Shown: positions 30,086 to 36,749 of the stretch, in pieces | Position numbering within the stretch: the first letter of the stretch is position 1 | Layout of the letters: each line of letters starts with the position of its first letter | Source of the DNA: Candidatus Hydrogenedentota bacterium | Lineage (GTDB): Bacteria > Hydrogenedentota > Hydrogenedentia > Hydrogenedentales > JAGMZX01 | Direction: 5' to 3' | Length of the DNA: 38,772 nt | Assembly (NCBI GenBank): GCA_029556545.1 | Contig: JAKQEQ010000025.1 | Span: 1-38,772, forward strand | Program-made: the position numbers and the translations under genes | Notes under the pieces: generated by a model | What the model was told of the DNA's origin: nothing | The model's database searches: none | Seen by the model: only the letters and a program-made list of their open reading frames with translations

Positions 30086-31111
30086 TTAGTGGCAGGCCGT
30101 GCAGCGCGCCGTACTGTTCAGCGGATGCGGCGCGAGGTAGGGAACGCCGCCGGGATGACACAAGCCGCACGCGCCGGGATACAGCCCGAAATTGTGCGGG
30201 GAAGGCATGGCGCCGCGATGCTCGACCGACTCGTGGCAGACGGTGCAGTTTGATCGTTCGGGCGGGAAGTGGCATGAGACGCAGTGCCGGTTCATCGGGT
30301 GCCCCCAGCCGCCGCGGTGCGAAGCCGGCTGCGTGTTCTCGTGGCACTCGATGCACGAATCCTCCTCATGGCACACAACACACTTGGATCGGTCCACCGT
30401 GGCGTGAAAGCCGTGCCCCTTGCGCCGCCATGAGACGGTATGATTGCGTGGCGGATTCGATCGATGGCACTCCTCGCACGAGGCCGGCGTGTCATGGCAT
30501 AGGGCGCAATACGCCGGGTCGATGCGCGCCTCCTTCCCGTGAAGGTGCTCCCAGATAGCCGGCGCGTCGTGCTGGATACGGCTGCCGAAGCGGTACAGCG
30601 GCCGCACGTCCTTGTTCAGCGTCTCGTGGCACACTTGGCACTCGTTCAGTTTCGGGTCCGTGGCCTGGTGGCAGTCCATACAGAAGGCCTTCGTGGCCTT
30701 CTTGGGAAGGATCCGCTGATCGGGGTCTTCGTGGCACACGCCGCATTCGAGCCCGGCGGCCACATGCGGATCATGGCTGAACTTGATCTCACCCGCGGGC
30801 AATACGGACGATCGTGCATCGAGCGCGTAATCCTCGCGCGTATGGCACATGCCGCATTGCTCCGGCGTCGGATTGTCCGTGTCGATGTCGTGACAGGTCG
30901 AGCACGTTTCGTGGTCCGGAATCAGTCCCTCGGGCCGCGACATGTCGTGACAATCCGTGCACCCGAGATCGTCGGCGTGCGTGGCGTGGGGAAATCGCAA
31001 CCCGCGGTCGCGACGCGTGCCCGCGCCTTTGGTGAAAGAGGCGCACGCGACGACAAAGCAGAGCAGCAGCGTCCCCAGCACCAGATAGCGTTCCGCGTTG
31101 CGTCGCGACAT
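30086..31111 (-). CDS. Multihaem c-type cytochrome lipoprotein (14 CXXCH)
   Basis: 341 residues from ATG 31111, with GGGAG 8 nt upstream. Residues 1-22 are a lipoprotein signal (V-V-A-C). I count 14 CXXCH sites: CTDCH, CSTCH, CGMCH, CGVCH, CMDCH, CQVCH, CALCH, CEECH, CVVCH, CIECH, CVSCH, CTVCH, CGLCH and CTACH, about one haem per 23 residues. Many extra His residues ('FPHATHADD', 'KFSHDPH', 'GWGHPMNRH') suit distal ligands. It resembles the tandem cytochrome c3/c7-like multihaem proteins of metal- and nitrogen-oxide-reducing bacteria. It is third in the cytochrome-porin-cytochrome unit, 19 bp after the porin. Periplasmic or cell-surface side is undecided. Confidence 0.9.
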   Translation of the reverse strand: MSRRNAERYLVLGTLLLCFVVACASFTKGAGTRRDRGLRFPHATHADDLGCTDCHDMSRPEGLIPDHETCSTCHDIDTDNPTPEQCGMCHTREDYALDARSSVLPAGEIKFSHDPHVAAGLECGVCHEDPDQRILPKKATKAFCMDCHQATDPKLNECQVCHETLNKDVRPLYRFGSRIQHDAPAIWEHLHGKEARIDPAYCALCHDTPASCEECHRSNPPRNHTVSWRRKGHGFHATVDRSKCVVCHEEDSCIECHENTQPASHRGGWGHPMNRHCVSCHFPPERSNCTVCHESVEHRGAMPSPHNFGLYPGACGLCHPGGVPYLAPHPLNSTARCTACH

Positions 31112-31130
31112 GCGTTCGTCTCCCGAAGCT

Positions 31131-32732
31131 TCAGAATCGAATAGTATAGCCTGCCCGCACGCGCCAGTAGGGGGAGTCAGGCCCTTCGTCCTCTTCATAA
31201 GTAACGGTCAGAGAGACATCCTGGTTTTCCCGTACCTGCCACTTCAAGCGCGCGTACACCGAGTAGATGTTCTCATGAGTCGTCACGGCGTATTGATCGA
31301 ACAGCAGCACCACCGGGTTGTAGCCCGCGAAATAGCCCGGCACAAAGGCGATCAGCAGGCGGTCCGCGATGCCGAGCGGCGCGTAATACCGCGTGATGCG
31401 GTCTTCGTACCGCTCGTAGTCCGCCCCGAGGGTCACCGCGATCGCATCGCTCCAGTGGTACGTCATCTCGCCCGTGAGCGTCCACGTCCCGTCGCCGCCG
31501 CTCACGTCCCACTTCTCGACCGCCAGCGTCACGTCCGTCTTCTTGAAGATCGGCGTCACGCTCAGTATCGCGGCGTAGCGGTTATAGTCGCGGTTCGCCG
31601 TTTCCCAGTCATCATCGGCGTTGTGGAACTCGGCTTCGAGGGAAAGCGTGATTCGCTCCGAAAGCGGCTTATGCAGCGCCGCCAGCACATTGTGATATTC
31701 GGTGAAGCCGCCAAGCACCGAGTAGAAAGCGGTCAAGTCGTCCACGCGGTCCGAGGCCGTCGCGAAACGGCCGCGATAAGAAACCTCATAACTGAGGTCG
31801 GCGCCCGGCCAAAAGCCGACCAACTGCGCCGTGATTTCGTCCAGGTCGCCGTCATGAAGCCGTATGCGGCCGAAGAAGCTCGTGTTCGGCGTGAGCTGCC
31901 GCCACAGGCTCAGCGCGACCAGGTTGTCCCCGAGGTCCCGCTTGAGTCGGCGGGGATACTCCCGGCCCAGCAGCACGGAAATCAGGTCCGGGCGCACCGC
32001 GTCGTCCCGTTCCCGGTGTTTCTCGCCCCAGTAGGCGTCCAGACTGATGCGCGTGCGCGCGTCGGGCCGGAACGAAACGCCGCCGCCCGCCGTCAGGTCG
32101 TCGAAGGTCGAGTCGTAGACCGACGCGCGCGCGCCTCCGAACAAATACCACTCCCACCGCCCCATTTTGCGCGAAAAATAGATGCCGTCGATACGGTTGT
32201 ACGCCGCCCCTTCCTCGATGCGCTGGCGGCCAATCCGCAGCGTGGAATCGCCCCATACGTCGTCCACTTCGAGATACAAGAGGTACAGCCGCGCGCGCAC
32301 CGCCTCGCCCGATCCGTCGTTGATGTCGCGCAGCACGCTCGAGCGCGCCTCGCTCGAATCGAGGTCCTCATGTACACGCAGCAGCCCGCGCAGGTGCAGG
32401 CGCGGATGACTCGCCGGATCGATGTTCAACCGCAGCGTCTGGCTCATGTCCAGGTCCGAGTCCCTGTCGGACCAAGAGGCGTCCAGTTCGTTCCTGAAGC
32501 TGCCGGATATCCACTCCCTGCCCCCTGCCGCGTGGGCATCCTGCCCATGGTCGTCCGCCGCCGGGGGGGCGCTCACCGTGCCATCAGCGTCCTGCGCAGC
32601 GTCTTCCATCACGGGCGAGACGCCCGTGCCGCCATCCGCGAACACGCCCCCCGCGAGACAACCCGCAACCAGGACCATCCCCAAGGCAGTCCATCGCCCG
32701 CGTTCCGTCTTCTTCACAAACGTTTCTCTCAT
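31131..32732 (-). CDS. Outer-membrane beta-barrel protein of a porin-cytochrome unit
   Basis: 533 residues from ATG 32732 (GGAAGGG 9 nt upstream). A signal peptide (about 1-33, 'LGMVLVAGCLAGGVFA') is followed by a 35-residue low-complexity linker made from a palindromic repeat. About 20-23 amphipathic strands follow, such as 'RLHLRGLLRVHEDL', 'RWEWYLFGGARAS' and 'TWTLTGEMTYHW', ending 'VRAGYTIRF' with the C-terminal Phe needed for outer-membrane insertion. Acidic loops alternate with the strands. No CXXCH. Its place between two multihaem cytochromes suggests a sheath like MtrB or Geobacter Omb proteins, but I see no direct sequence signature of those families. Confidence 0.8.
   Translation of the reverse strand: MRETFVKKTERGRWTALGMVLVAGCLAGGVFADGGTGVSPVMEDAAQDADGTVSAPPAADDHGQDAHAAGGREWISGSFRNELDASWSDRDSDLDMSQTLRLNIDPASHPRLHLRGLLRVHEDLDSSEARSSVLRDINDGSGEAVRARLYLLYLEVDDVWGDSTLRIGRQRIEEGAAYNRIDGIYFSRKMGRWEWYLFGGARASVYDSTFDDLTAGGGVSFRPDARTRISLDAYWGEKHRERDDAVRPDLISVLLGREYPRRLKRDLGDNLVALSLWRQLTPNTSFFGRIRLHDGDLDEITAQLVGFWPGADLSYEVSYRGRFATASDRVDDLTAFYSVLGGFTEYHNVLAALHKPLSERITLSLEAEFHNADDDWETANRDYNRYAAILSVTPIFKKTDVTLAVEKWDVSGGDGTWTLTGEMTYHWSDAIAVTLGADYERYEDRITRYYAPLGIADRLLIAFVPGYFAGYNPVVLLFDQYAVTTHENIYSVYARLKWQVRENQDVSLTVTYEEDEGPDSPYWRVRAGYTIRF
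32531..32635. repeat. Palindromic repeat cluster inside the porin gene
   Basis: CGTGGGCATCCTGCCCATGG (32531-32550) and ATCACGGGCGAGACGCCCGTGCC (32609-32631) match intergenic copies at 30017-30036 and 28775-28797. On the coding strand they read 'GGTGVSPVMEDAAQDA' and 'DDHGQDAHAAGG', in frame, directly after the signal peptide. Confidence 0.8.
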
Positions 32733-32756
32733 CAACGAAGACCCTTCCCACACCCT

Positions 32757-33590
32757 TCACCCTTCACCAACCGTCCCATATCGCGTGTCATACAGGATTT
32801 GCAGTAGTTCGTTGTGCTCCCGCAGTTCCACGTCGAACACCGGCGCCGTCGCCACCCCGCCGTCGTGACACCCCGCGATCCCCGAACACGAATTCGCCGG
32901 CGTCGGCGTAACGCCCTCTTCCGCCGCCACGTTCGACGCGATAGGCGGCACGGGGCGCATCGTGTGGCTGTGCGGCCCATCGAACGGATTGAGGCGTTCG
33001 AGCGGGACCATGTGGCACGCCGCGCAACGGCTTGCGCCCGTGCCCGCCGGGTCCACCGAGTGGTGCGTGTGCGCCCGGACCTCCGCGTCCGTCGCGAAGC
33101 CATAGGGGCCGTGACATTCCAGGCAGAGGCTGTTGTCCGTGTAGCGCGCCACAGTCCGGTCGCCCCCGTGAACGTCGTGGCAGTCCTTGCAGGCCACCGC
33201 CCCGCTTGCCCCGTGCCCGCTCTCCATATGCCCCTTCGTCTCCGCCTCATGACACTTCCGACACAGCGCGTAGACGTCGCCGTCGTTCTCAAGCGCGCGA
33301 ATGAACAGGCCCCCGCGGCCCCCGTTCCGAACGTGCATCAGGCCCGGCCCGTGACACGTCTCACAGCCAATCCCCAAATGCGCGCTCATGACGAAGCCCG
33401 ACCGGTCCGGTGCGAGCCGCCCGTCGTGGCACCTGAGGCAGACACTCGTACCCACCGTGCCCGGCCCGTCCGGGCAGCCGCCAAGGCCGCCCACAACCAA
33501 TAACAACGCGCAGAGACGGCCCGACGCGATAACCGAGCGCGTGACATGTCCGCGCAACCATCCGCTACTTCCCAAGACAAGTCTCCCCAC
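32757..33590 (-). CDS. Multihaem c-type cytochrome lipoprotein (six CXXCH plus one CX5CH)
   Basis: 277 residues from GTG 33590 (AGGA 9 nt upstream; GTG 33545 is an alternative). Lipobox L-G-G-C lies at about residues 36-39. Haem sites are CLRCH, CETCH, CRKCH, CKDCH, CLECH and CAACH, with an unusual CSGIAGCH near residue 246. 'SVCLRCHDG', 'SAHLGIGCETCHGPGLMHV' and 'ESGHGASGAVACKDCHDVH' resemble the repeats of MtrA/DmsE-type cytochromes, which sit in or against an outer-membrane porin. It heads the minus-strand unit, 24 bp before the porin. The last 35 residues lack haem sites. Confidence 0.88.
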   Translation of the reverse strand: MGRLVLGSSGWLRGHVTRSVIASGRLCALLLVVGGLGGCPDGPGTVGTSVCLRCHDGRLAPDRSGFVMSAHLGIGCETCHGPGLMHVRNGGRGGLFIRALENDGDVYALCRKCHEAETKGHMESGHGASGAVACKDCHDVHGGDRTVARYTDNSLCLECHGPYGFATDAEVRAHTHHSVDPAGTGASRCAACHMVPLERLNPFDGPHSHTMRPVPPIASNVAAEEGVTPTPANSCSGIAGCHDGGVATAPVFDVELREHNELLQILYDTRYGTVGEG

Positions 33591-33640
33591 AGGCCAAAAT
33601 CCTGACCCTTAGCCTACACCACCTCCCCGCCCCAATTCAT

Positions 33641-33655
33641 CCGTGTAAAACACGG
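33641..33655. promoter_or_regulatory. Inverted repeat in the divergent cytochrome control region
   Basis: CCGTGT-AAA-ACACGG, perfect 6-bp arms, 50 bp upstream of the minus-strand cytochrome start. Its dyad and position suit a regulator-binding site shared by the two divergent units. No named motif is recognised. Confidence 0.45.
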
Positions 33656-33684
33656 AAAACATTACCCGCCCCACGCGCAAGGAC

Positions 33685-33704
33685 GTTGTCGAGAGGCCGA
33701 CAAC
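33685..33704. promoter_or_regulatory. Second inverted repeat in the divergent cytochrome control region
   Basis: GTTGTCG-AGAGGC-CGACAAC, perfect 7-bp arms. It is followed by an AT-rich stretch (33710-33800) with a possible -10 element TATACT at 33793-33798 for the plus-strand unit. I find no convincing -35 box. Confidence 0.45.
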
Positions 33705-33882
33705 CCGGATCAGAAACGATTTGCGTAATTTATACGGAGTAAGTTGATAAGGATTGGTTCTTTCCCCGGATGTATATCGGATAGCGGTGTCCTATACTTC
33801 CGAGCGGCGAATGGCGCGGCCTGGCGGACGCCAGCCCCGCTGCAAGGAAATGAACCGGCAAATGCGGCCTTGGAGTCAGCGG

Positions 33883-34509
33883 ATGTCACGAATCCCCAGG
33901 ATCAAGAATATCCTTTACCGATGCGCCGCGGCGCTTTGCTCCGCCCTTGTGTTCTCGGCCTGCCCGAGTTCGCCCGCCCCGGACGCTGCGGCCTCGCTTT
34001 ATGAGCGGGATGTCTCGGCGGGCATCCACGACATCACGCCGCTGCGCGGCGAACGCGGGCCGCTACGCCTCCACGTGGACGACGACGCGTTCGAGTGCTC
34101 GGGTTGCCACGACGGGTTTTCCGGCGATCTTTCGGAGGCCGCGATCGAGGGAGAGCATAAGAACATCGTGTTCGCCCACGGCAGAAACCTGCTGTGTCTC
34201 AATTGCCATCACCCCGAGAACAGCGACGTCTACCTGGACCACGGCGGCGGCGAAATCCCCGGCGACCAACCCACGTTGCTGTGCGCCAAGTGTCACGGCC
34301 CCCACTATCGCGAGTGGGAACACGGCGTCCACGGCCGAGTAAACCACTTCTGGGATGCGCGCTTCGGCCCGGAGAAGAACCTCGACTGCATTCAATGCCA
34401 CGACCCGCACCACCCCCGAATCCCCGAAATGAAACCGGAGCCGCCTCCGGTGCTTACCCGATTTGACCATCCAGCCAAGGGAGACTCCGCGCATGAGCCG
34501 GGAGCATGA
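33883..34509 (+). CDS. Tetrahaem c-type cytochrome lipoprotein
   Basis: 208 residues from ATG 33883, chosen because GGAG lies 8 nt upstream and the signal peptide then starts normally; the frame stays open to 33754. The lipoprotein signal (1-25) ends F-S-A-C. Four CXXCH sites (CSGCH, CLNCH, CAKCH, CIQCH) lie at about residues 66-174, with extra His in 'CHHPEN' and 'HGVHGRVNHFW'. A four- or five-haem electron carrier is the usual partner of NrfC/NrfD-type modules, passing electrons between the quinone-linked complex and the periplasm. The stop overlaps the next gene by 17 bp. Confidence 0.9.
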   Translation: MSRIPRIKNILYRCAAALCSALVFSACPSSPAPDAAASLYERDVSAGIHDITPLRGERGPLRLHVDDDAFECSGCHDGFSGDLSEAAIEGEHKNIVFAHGRNLLCLNCHHPENSDVYLDHGGGEIPGDQPTLLCAKCHGPHYREWEHGVHGRVNHFWDARFGPEKNLDCIQCHDPHHPRIPEMKPEPPPVLTRFDHPAKGDSAHEPGA

Positions 34510-35467
34510 CGAGCACAAGGATAGCCGCGGCGCGCAGCCGCCGAGGACGACGGATCCCAACTCCAGCGGACGCCGCACGTTCCTGAAGGCGGGTCTCGGG
34601 ACCGCCGTGGCGCTGTCGACTGGCGCGTTCGTGGCCGAACCGTTGCGCGGGCTCAAAGACAGCCCGACGCTGCATGAACTGCTGCGGAAGCATTACACCA
34701 AGCTTACCCCTGACTTGATGGACCAGGTGCTCCGCCGCATCGAGCGGCAGGTGGCCGCGAACTACTGCGCGAAGGTCCGCGTCAACGACCCCAAGCCGCT
34801 CGACGGCGTCGAGTACGCCTATTGCCTGAACTTGAGCCGGTGCAACGGGTCACGCCGATGCGTCACGGCCTGCATGCGGGAGAATAACATCCCGCCGGAC
34901 CACCCGGAAATGGCCTATATCCGCGTCATCGAGATGCCGAACGACACGCTCGACCTCGAAGACGGCAATCCCCTCTACGCGCACGAGACCATACCGGACC
35001 AGGGCAAGTTCTACCTTCCCATGTCGTGCCAACAGTGCCGGCAGCCTCCCTGTACCAAGGTGTGCCCCACACACGCGACCTGGACCGAGCCGGACGGCGT
35101 GACGGTTATCGACTACAACTGGTGCATCGGCTGCCGCTGCTGTCTCGCGGCCTGTCCTTACGAGGCGCGCCGGTTCAACTGGACGCGCCCGGAGATCAGA
35201 CCCGAGCAGATCAACCCGGACATGGGCTACCTGAGCAATCAAATACGGCCTCGCGGCGTGCCGGAGAAATGCCACTTCTGTCTGCACCGGACGCGCCTGG
35301 GCAAGAATCCCGCGTGCATGGAGGTATGCCCGACCGGCGCGCGCGTCTTCGGCAACATTCTGGACCCGAACGGGAAGATTCAATACATCCTGAAGAACAA
35401 GCGGGTCTACATATTGAAGGCGGAGGCGCACACCTTCCCCCGTTTCTACTACTTCTTCGAGAAATAG
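34493..35467 (+). CDS. Tat-exported four-cluster iron-sulfur protein (NrfC/HybA-like)
   Basis: 324 residues from ATG 34493 (AAGGGAG upstream). A twin-arginine-type signal 'SSGRRTFLKAGLG' lies at about residues 25-37. Four ferredoxin-like Cys groups follow. The first is C117-x2-Ser120-x2-C123-x3-C127, with Ser in place of one Cys and C111 nearby. The second is 'CQQCRQPPCTKVCP', the third 'CIGCRCCLAACP', and the fourth CX2CX11CX3C in 'CHFCLHRTRLGKNPACMEVCP'-type spacing. Such proteins relay electrons between an NrfD-type membrane subunit and a periplasmic cytochrome. It lies between the tetrahaem cytochrome and nrfD genes. The periplasmic side is implied by the signal. Confidence 0.92.
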   Translation: MSREHDEHKDSRGAQPPRTTDPNSSGRRTFLKAGLGTAVALSTGAFVAEPLRGLKDSPTLHELLRKHYTKLTPDLMDQVLRRIERQVAANYCAKVRVNDPKPLDGVEYAYCLNLSRCNGSRRCVTACMRENNIPPDHPEMAYIRVIEMPNDTLDLEDGNPLYAHETIPDQGKFYLPMSCQQCRQPPCTKVCPTHATWTEPDGVTVIDYNWCIGCRCCLAACPYEARRFNWTRPEIRPEQINPDMGYLSNQIRPRGVPEKCHFCLHRTRLGKNPACMEVCPTGARVFGNILDPNGKIQYILKNKRVYILKAEAHTFPRFYYFFEK

Positions 35468-35489
35468 CCACACGAGGAGCCCATTCGCC

Positions 35490-36749
35490 GTGCGTAACTA
35501 TCTGGTCTTTCTTGGACGATCCTTTCTGCTCAGTTTCTCGGGCAGTCCCCTCTTCTACGCGTGGATGGGATTCCTGACCGTGCTCTCGGCCATAGGCGCG
35601 CGGGCATTCACTCGGCAACTGGTGACGGGCCTCAGCATGACGGGCATGACGGACCAGGTCTCGTGGGGCATCTACATCGCCAATTTCACGTTCCTGGTCG
35701 GCCTCGCCGCCGCCGCCGTCATGCTGGTCATTCCCGCGTACATCTATCGCAAGAAAGAAATGCACGACGTCGTCATCTTTGGGGAACTCCTCGCCATTGC
35801 GGCCATCATCATGAGCCTCCTCTTCATCATGGTGGACCTTGGACGACCGGACCGCTTCTGGCACATGATCCCCATGATCGGGGAGTTCAATTTCCCCTAT
35901 TCGATGCTTTCCTGGGACTTCATCGTGCTGAACGGCTACCTGCTGGTGAACCTGCACATCTGCGGTTATCTCCTGTACATGAAGTACCTCGGACGCAAGC
36001 CGAGCGCCTTTATTTACATGCCCTTTGTCATTCTGTCGATTGCGTGGGCCATAAGCATCCATACGGTCACCGCGTTCCTGTTTGTGGGCCTCGTCGGACG
36101 CCACTTCTGGAACACGGCCATCGTCGCGCCCCGGTTTCTCGGGTCCGCGTTCACCGCCGGCCCGGGCATCCTCATCATCGCCTTTCAAGTGATTCGCCAC
36201 TTCTCCGGCTACCAGATCAGCGACCGGGCTATTCACATCCTGCGCAATATCGTGACGGCTTCGCTGCTCATCAACCTCTTCCTCCTGGCGTGCGAAGCCT
36301 TCAAGGAGTTCTACGCCTTCTCCTCCCACGGCAGTTCGGCGCGCTATCTCTTCTTCGGCCTCGAGAGCCACGGCGAGTATTACAGCGCGCTCGTCCCCTA
36401 TATCTGGGTCGCCATCCTCATGGAAGTCGCCGCGGCCATTATCCTCATCATCCCGCCCATCGCGCGCCGCATGCTCTACCTCAACATTGCGTGCGTCCTG
36501 GCGAACGTCGGCATCTGGTTTGAGAAGGGCATGGGACTGGTCATTCCCGGCTTCATCCCGTCGCCGCAGGGAACCGTCGTGGAATATGCCCCCTCGTCCA
36601 CGGAATGGCTCGTCACGATGGGCATATGGGCCTTCGGATTGCTCCTCTTCTCGTGGATGCTGCACCTGGCCATTCACATTATGAAAGGTGATTTCCACAT
36701 TTTGGCGGACGAACCCACGCGCGGCTTGCGGGAGCAAGCCGTCGGCTAA
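35490..36749 (+). CDS. nrfD: NrfD/PsrC family membrane subunit
   Basis: 419 residues from GTG 35490 (GAGGAG 10 nt upstream), 22 bp after the iron-sulfur gene. About ten membrane segments are seen, including 'WGIYIANFTFLVGLAAAAVM' and 'DLGRPDRFWHMIPMIG', both hallmarks of the family, then 'SWDFIVLNGYLLVNL' and 'FPxFxxSxHTVTAFLFVGL'-like segments. Family members bind menaquinol or ubiquinol in the inner membrane and pass electrons to the iron-sulfur partner, without haem. The length and ten helices fit the long type found in multi-subunit complexes. It completes a cytochrome/FeS/NrfD unit comparable to Geobacter Cbc4-type complexes (analogy only). Confidence 0.94.
   Translation: MRNYLVFLGRSFLLSFSGSPLFYAWMGFLTVLSAIGARAFTRQLVTGLSMTGMTDQVSWGIYIANFTFLVGLAAAAVMLVIPAYIYRKKEMHDVVIFGELLAIAAIIMSLLFIMVDLGRPDRFWHMIPMIGEFNFPYSMLSWDFIVLNGYLLVNLHICGYLLYMKYLGRKPSAFIYMPFVILSIAWAISIHTVTAFLFVGLVGRHFWNTAIVAPRFLGSAFTAGPGILIIAFQVIRHFSGYQISDRAIHILRNIVTASLLINLFLLACEAFKEFYAFSSHGSSARYLFFGLESHGEYYSALVPYIWVAILMEVAAAIILIIPPIARRMLYLNIACVLANVGIWFEKGMGLVIPGFIPSPQGTVVEYAPSSTEWLVTMGIWAFGLLLFSWMLHLAIHIMKGDFHILADEPTRGLREQAVG

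Follow-up and report, generated by a model that had tools for sequence, protein, structure and literature searches.

Genes C, B and A, which lie in this order on the minus strand of the analyzed window (the whole 38,772-nucleotide stretch, contig JAKQEQ010000025.1 of a Candidatus Hydrogenedentota genome), probably encode a trans-outer-membrane electron conduit of the porin-cytochrome (Pcc) kind, a reading to which we assign a probability of roughly 0.72: the β-barrel B would insulate or dock the 14-haem cytochrome A, the lipoprotein cytochrome C would be an exchangeable component, an MtrC-family cytochrome would act in trans, and the quinone-side modules would be exchangeable as well. The reading builds on gene content, haem and ligand conservation, a modeled strand count, linkage and co-occurrence.

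Divergently from C-B-A, genes D, E and F lie on the plus strand, and all six are found where the preliminary description of this locus had placed them, with the haem motif counts it gave. A (30086..31198, minus strand) encodes a 370-aa c-type cytochrome lipoprotein with exactly 14 CXXCH motifs; B (31131..32753, minus) an outer-membrane β-barrel with a signal peptide and a C-terminal phenylalanine (...GYTIRF); and C (32757..33590, minus) a 7-haem lipoprotein cytochrome with six CXXCH motifs plus one CX5CH (CSGIAGCH), a GGLGGC lipobox and an MtrA/DmsE-like domain. On the opposite strand, D (33754..34509, plus) is an NrfB-like tetrahaem cytochrome lipoprotein with four CXXCH motifs and an FSAC lipobox, E (34463..35467, plus) a Tat-exported four-cluster ferredoxin with an RRTFLK Tat motif and 18 cysteines, resembling DsrO, QrcC and NrfC, and F (35490..36749, plus) an NrfD-family membrane quinone subunit closest to DsrP. 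Signal peptides point to revised starts for four of these: that of A is more probably the ATG at 31111 (MSRRN...), and those of B, D and E are likely the ATG at 32732, the ATG at 33883 and position 34493, respectively, so that A and B would no longer overlap; the start codon of C is uncertain.

In an AlphaFold2 model (mean pLDDT 76, pTM 0.68) B has 22 strands, with the barrel blocks mostly at pLDDT 80-96 and the low-scoring part mainly at the N terminus, well clear of the 16 strands or fewer that had been named beforehand as too narrow to hold a cytochrome. By the standard barrel formula, 22 strands correspond to a backbone radius of about 20 Å, and TonB-dependent receptors of that strand number enclose a folded plug domain some 150 residues long, so that a cytochrome could fit inside B. 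The sequence itself has no significant match in Pfam, NCBIfam or the PDB: similarity to Porin_4 is weak (E 0.03-0.04), the MtrB model TIGR03509 does not match, and among 30 B homologues family matches are stray, PF11854 (MtrB_PioB) being hit in 2 of them with a best E of 0.0015. Foldseek searches with the model return generic barrels (OccD, AlgE, ushers), all listed TM-scores being low, and MtrB is not among the best 50 matches. With no MtrB or MtrB/PioB match above cut-off for B or, using two models, in 68 Hydrogenedentota genomes, an identity of B with MtrB is ruled out, in keeping with the initial impression that the barrel is not obviously MtrB-like.

Within the phylum, B occurs in 29 of the 68 genomes at 30 loci, the 28 other genomes carrying it at 36-74% identity to the B of the window. 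The matching named records are Candidatus Hydrogenedentota MAGs except for one labeled 'Nitrospiraceae' and one 'uncultured bacterium'; the former, MAG OTbin.67 (L078), matches a genome (G045) that the genome collection places in Hydrogenedentota, and its label looks wrong. A lies downstream of B, always with 14 CXXCH motifs, in every locus on a long enough contig, and C lies upstream with 6+1 or 8+1 motifs in all complete loci but G021; G051, too, has a fragment of A. On this evidence C-B-A, as predicted from sequence, is a real, conserved porin-cytochrome module, as the preliminary description had it. In G021, C is replaced beside the barrel by a fragment (L056:2-1285, plus) in which the CXXCH motif recurs 21 times. 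A tetrahaem gene, absent in the window, follows A in 13 related loci (L032, L036-L039, L041, L042, L048, L049, L051, L052, L057, L058), and that of L051, the sole one scanned, is c554-like.

Both cytochromes of the module bear the marks of electron wires. The 14 CXXCH motifs of A and exactly 14 further histidines are invariant across 29 related proteins, which suggests bis-His ligation of every haem and hence a wire rather than an enzyme; family searches match A to c7-type families and PDB profile searches to c7/ActA/GSU1996-type cytochromes, and the protein is a candidate for a wire that threads or docks at the barrel. In 24 related C proteins all seven motifs, CX5CH included, exactly seven further histidines and the lipobox cysteine are invariant, which would again mean bis-His ligation throughout and a wire, not an enzyme. 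The CX5CH motif (CSGIAGCH, residues 235-242 of C), an unusual spacing for haem attachment, is paired with the seventh invariant histidine, suggesting that it does bind haem. The conservation of motifs and histidines among the relatives of A and C argues that these patterns are not due to chance. C is probably an exchangeable second cytochrome at the barrel, placed at the outer face or handing electrons off to it.

A pattern scan of contigs with the barrel alignment had found only Hydrogenedentota-type loci and so suggested a phylum-restricted B family, but this was overturned by a more sensitive barrel profile search of 386 genomes (318 from outside the phylum), which detected weak B relatives in 13 genomes. 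Each outside barrel with downstream sequence is directly followed by an A-type cytochrome, a weak 5-haem match in L119 and L120; conversely, at 14 loci picked by A similarity and open-frame length alone a barrel relative lies directly upstream in 14 of 14, as judged with a broader barrel profile that contains distant barrels from the first one, which makes this a less independent test than the first search. B and A are thus adjacent on one strand at all 26 comparable outside loci, most pairs being separated by a few bases or, going by open-frame bounds, overlapping, and their distances correlate across 21 outside loci (Mantel r=0.72, 0/2000 permutations). The Hydrogenedentota sequences form one clade, with a support of 0.89 for B and 0.44 for A. 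C-like genes beside the outside pairs are either missing or widely varying in length (182-1216 aa). Because A always accompanies distant barrels while C-like genes vary or are missing, the predicted B-A pair is an ancient core and C an exchangeable part; and since the constant neighbor of the barrel across phyla is the A-type cytochrome, not C, the arrangement put forward earlier, with a 7-haem inner and a 14-haem outer cytochrome, is probably reversed. NCBIfam names at the distant loci include no Omb or Ext label, and weak profile matches extend to loci ordered barrel-8h-9h (L123) and 11h-barrel-5h-5h (L119). In L132, from another phylum, an octahaem tetrathionate-reductase-like gene (L132:4523-6067, minus; TIGR04315, 113.9 bits) stands divergent from the B-A pair.

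The module travels with a surface cytochrome and a quinol dehydrogenase. OmcA/MtrC-family proteins exceed their cut-off in 27 of the 68 genomes, and 24 of these 27 have B; five genomes have B alone, three the MtrC family alone and 36 neither (Fisher p=1.6e-10; 1.9e-8 at genus level), where the genomes are related and so not fully independent, a kinship that the genus-level test lessens and does not remove. The five B-bearing genomes without a full MtrC-family match, which count against the proposed reading, include the 99% complete G025. In the genome studied here the family member is encoded outside the window on contig C183 (441.7 bits against a cut-off of 209.3); this gene (L072:8905-11040, minus) specifies a decahaem lipoprotein in which a collagen-like GPQGPTGPQGPEGPEGP... 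linker connects the lipid anchor to the cytochrome domains. An MtrC-family gene lies near C-B-A at 15 loci (14 stretches, plus G015 at about 12 kb). A NapC/NrfH-type quinol dehydrogenase with five CXXCH motifs and one CX3CH occurs together with B in 26 genomes (p=2.9e-11). The gene divergent from C is of the MtrC family in four loci and of the NapC type in five, and D-E-F takes that place only in this genome. Near the module in some relatives (L035:9243-11225, plus; L042:7923-10739, minus), 11 or 19 CXXCH motifs are fused to a cytochrome b561-like membrane domain, possibly as further quinol dehydrogenases.

Set against known conduits, the predicted B-A pair best fits the Geobacter-like Pcc kind and not MtrAB, the likeness to OmbB/OmaB being judged by architecture. 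Pcc systems are defined by a porin of 18-22 strands and a 5-14-haem periplasmic cytochrome (Shi 2014, PMC4245776), and in the two-gene Pcc clusters of Anaeromyxobacter and Kuenenia a 12-14-haem, 338-344-aa cytochrome stands beside the barrel (PMC4245776). As in OmbB-OmaB-OmcB and the two-gene types, a barrel with a strand number in the Pcc range adjoins a multihaem cytochrome: A, with its 14 haems, immediately follows the barrel gene at all complete loci, whether within the phylum or beyond it. Most Pcc members also have an outer-membrane lipoprotein cytochrome in the cluster, to which C, a lipoprotein with an invariant lipobox cysteine, may or may not correspond. The system described here differs in lacking an OmcB-like protein and having instead a small 7- or 9-haem MtrA-like lipoprotein and an MtrC-family cytochrome. 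Since the C-B-A architecture lies inside the published definition (PMC4245776), the earlier designation as a new conduit type is too strong. Geobacter extABCD and extEFG, which encode barrels predicted to have 18 (ExtB) or 21 (ExtE) strands alongside small lipoproteins with five haems (ExtC/ExtF) and a periplasmic cytochrome with twelve (ExtA/ExtG) (PMC6148476), share by description the combination of barrel, multihaem periplasmic cytochrome and small lipoprotein cytochrome, whereas A has 14 haems instead of 12 and the gene order differs. Unclassified barrels beside multihaem cytochromes are likewise described for Verrucomicrobia porin-MHC loci, with at least 20 strands (PMC5615132), and for PCC3/PCC4 (PMC5566968), but there, compared again by description, the partners carry 8 haems or very many. 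With MtrCAB of Shewanella the module has in common its overall logic, an MtrC-family decahaem protein in the B-bearing genomes and, in C, a distant MtrA/DmsE relative; it departs from it in the lack of MtrB in the phylum, a barrel modeled with 22 instead of 26 strands (PMC12133095), a lipid-anchored C carrying 7 or 9 haems versus a decahaem MtrA, and the additional 14-haem A. The mtrCAB clusters reported by Baker et al. (PMC8805035) come from three phyla, Hydrogenedentota not among them, and searches of the open-access literature for Hydrogenedentota turned up Cyc2 homologues and no conduit of the C-B-A kind.

A further point against the Pcc reading is that it is C rather than A whose closest PDB match is MtrA, in profile and fold searches alike: 6r2q_A is the top profile match (E=3.6e-21) and also the top, if weak, Foldseek match of the C model (pLDDT 79.5; probability 0.98, E 0.015), C partially matches the DmsE/MtrA family TIGR03508 (58 bits, below the cut-off of 192.2), some of its homologues have 9 haems, and the cytochrome-barrel-cytochrome order recalls mtr. 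An MtrAB-like topology, in which C would thread the barrel and A would act either as the outer cytochrome, as first suggested for this locus, or as a periplasmic wire feeding C, could accommodate these likenesses, but we consider it unlikely: at distant barrels A is always adjacent whereas C-like genes are absent or divergent in size, profile searches match the same pentahaem-type domain of C to extracellular OcwA and to many nitrite reductases as well, and the published two-gene Pcc clusters consist of a barrel and a 12-14-haem cytochrome (PMC4245776). From linkage, we infer that A is favored over C as the barrel occupant by about three to one. Far less probable still is that B is an ordinary solute porin whose neighboring cytochromes are solely periplasmic; the faint Porin_4 similarity and the generic Foldseek barrels would suit such a protein, but no family exceeds its cut-off in the search for the solute-porin homology that the preliminary description had named as refuting, no fold match is significant, and neither the retention of barrel-cytochrome adjacency across phyla nor the co-occurrence with the MtrC family would be expected of it.

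The D-E-F genes call for a separate judgement. Like NetBCD/NrfBCD and DsrOP (of DsrMKJOP), they combine a multihaem cytochrome, a four-cluster protein and an NrfD subunit, but D is tetrahaem, against pentahaem NrfB (PRK11659, 32.8 bits, cut-off 184) and trihaem DsrJ (no match), and E, which matches Fer4_11 at 61 bits, stays below the cut-offs for DsrO (160.7 bits, cut-off 200) and NrfC (97.2, cut-off 377.6); the NetB score is 10.2 bits against a cut-off of 380. F matches PF03916 (126.9 bits) and, at 397.6 bits, exceeds the equivalog cut-off of 350 of the NCBIfam DsrP model NF045798 though D and E are unlike DsrJ and DsrO, so that automatic annotation could mislabel these as sulfate-reduction genes. 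E orthologues occur in 13 of the 68 genomes, three of them without B, and D-E-F is linked to C-B-A in this genome and in G032 only; in the sister genome G040 the divergent position is occupied by a NapC/NrfH-type gene. Given this linkage in just two genomes and the NapC-type replacement, D-E-F is probably an interchangeable quinone-side module, an exchange that has a precedent in CymA and NetBCD as alternative quinol dehydrogenases for mtrCAB (Baker et al., PMC8805035), and a conserved six-gene route, as originally envisaged, is ruled out beyond these two genomes. Of the earlier interpretation the C-B-A module is supported; the six-gene route, the haem topology and the new type are not. The narrow linkage and the B-free genomes also lend themselves to another reading, one that concerns D-E-F only and is compatible with C-B-A as a conduit, namely that D-E-F is an independent DsrOP/NrfBCD-like respiratory module that serves another periplasmic reductase and is a neighbor by chance. 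We hold this to be a serious possibility somewhat short of even odds; against it, E orthologues are enriched with B (10/13, p=0.011) and with the MtrC family (10/13, p=0.004), G032 places D-E-F after MtrC-family and NapC-type genes on one strand divergent from C-B-A, and an Nrf-like NetBCD is accepted as a CymA alternative beside mtrCAB (PMC8805035).

In the Pcc-kind conduit that we propose, most genomes would oxidize quinol with the NapC/NrfH-type cytochrome, the genome studied here probably with D-E-F as well; electrons from the quinone side would pass to A, which would carry them through or beside the 22-strand B across the outer membrane and on to C and/or the MtrC-family protein, the OmcA/MtrC-family decahaem lipoprotein serving in trans as the surface terminal reductase, and thence to an outside acceptor, possibly minerals or humics. 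Outward flow is likelier than inward; complex formation, the identity of the cytochrome in the barrel, topology, direction and substrate are all parts that we infer.

What is new here is probably the use of a Pcc-type core with an MtrC-family surface cytochrome, an unusual combination of known parts. Whether Hydrogenedentota in fact operate such a hybrid conduit, in which a 14-haem wire, a 7-haem lipoprotein with its CX5CH motif and an unrelated barrel of 22 strands serve an MtrC-family surface cytochrome in place of MtrAB, we regard as evenly balanced. As the barrel of the cross-phylum pair matches no Pfam or NCBIfam model, current annotation misses this barrel-cytochrome pair. The data suggest that a barrel other than MtrB can partner MtrC-type surface cytochromes; if the hybrid conduit is real, the Mtr and Pcc lineages would be free to swap surface terminal reductases and trans-membrane cores with each other. 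If the conduit reading is right, about two fifths of the sampled Hydrogenedentota species would be able to exchange electrons with the outside.
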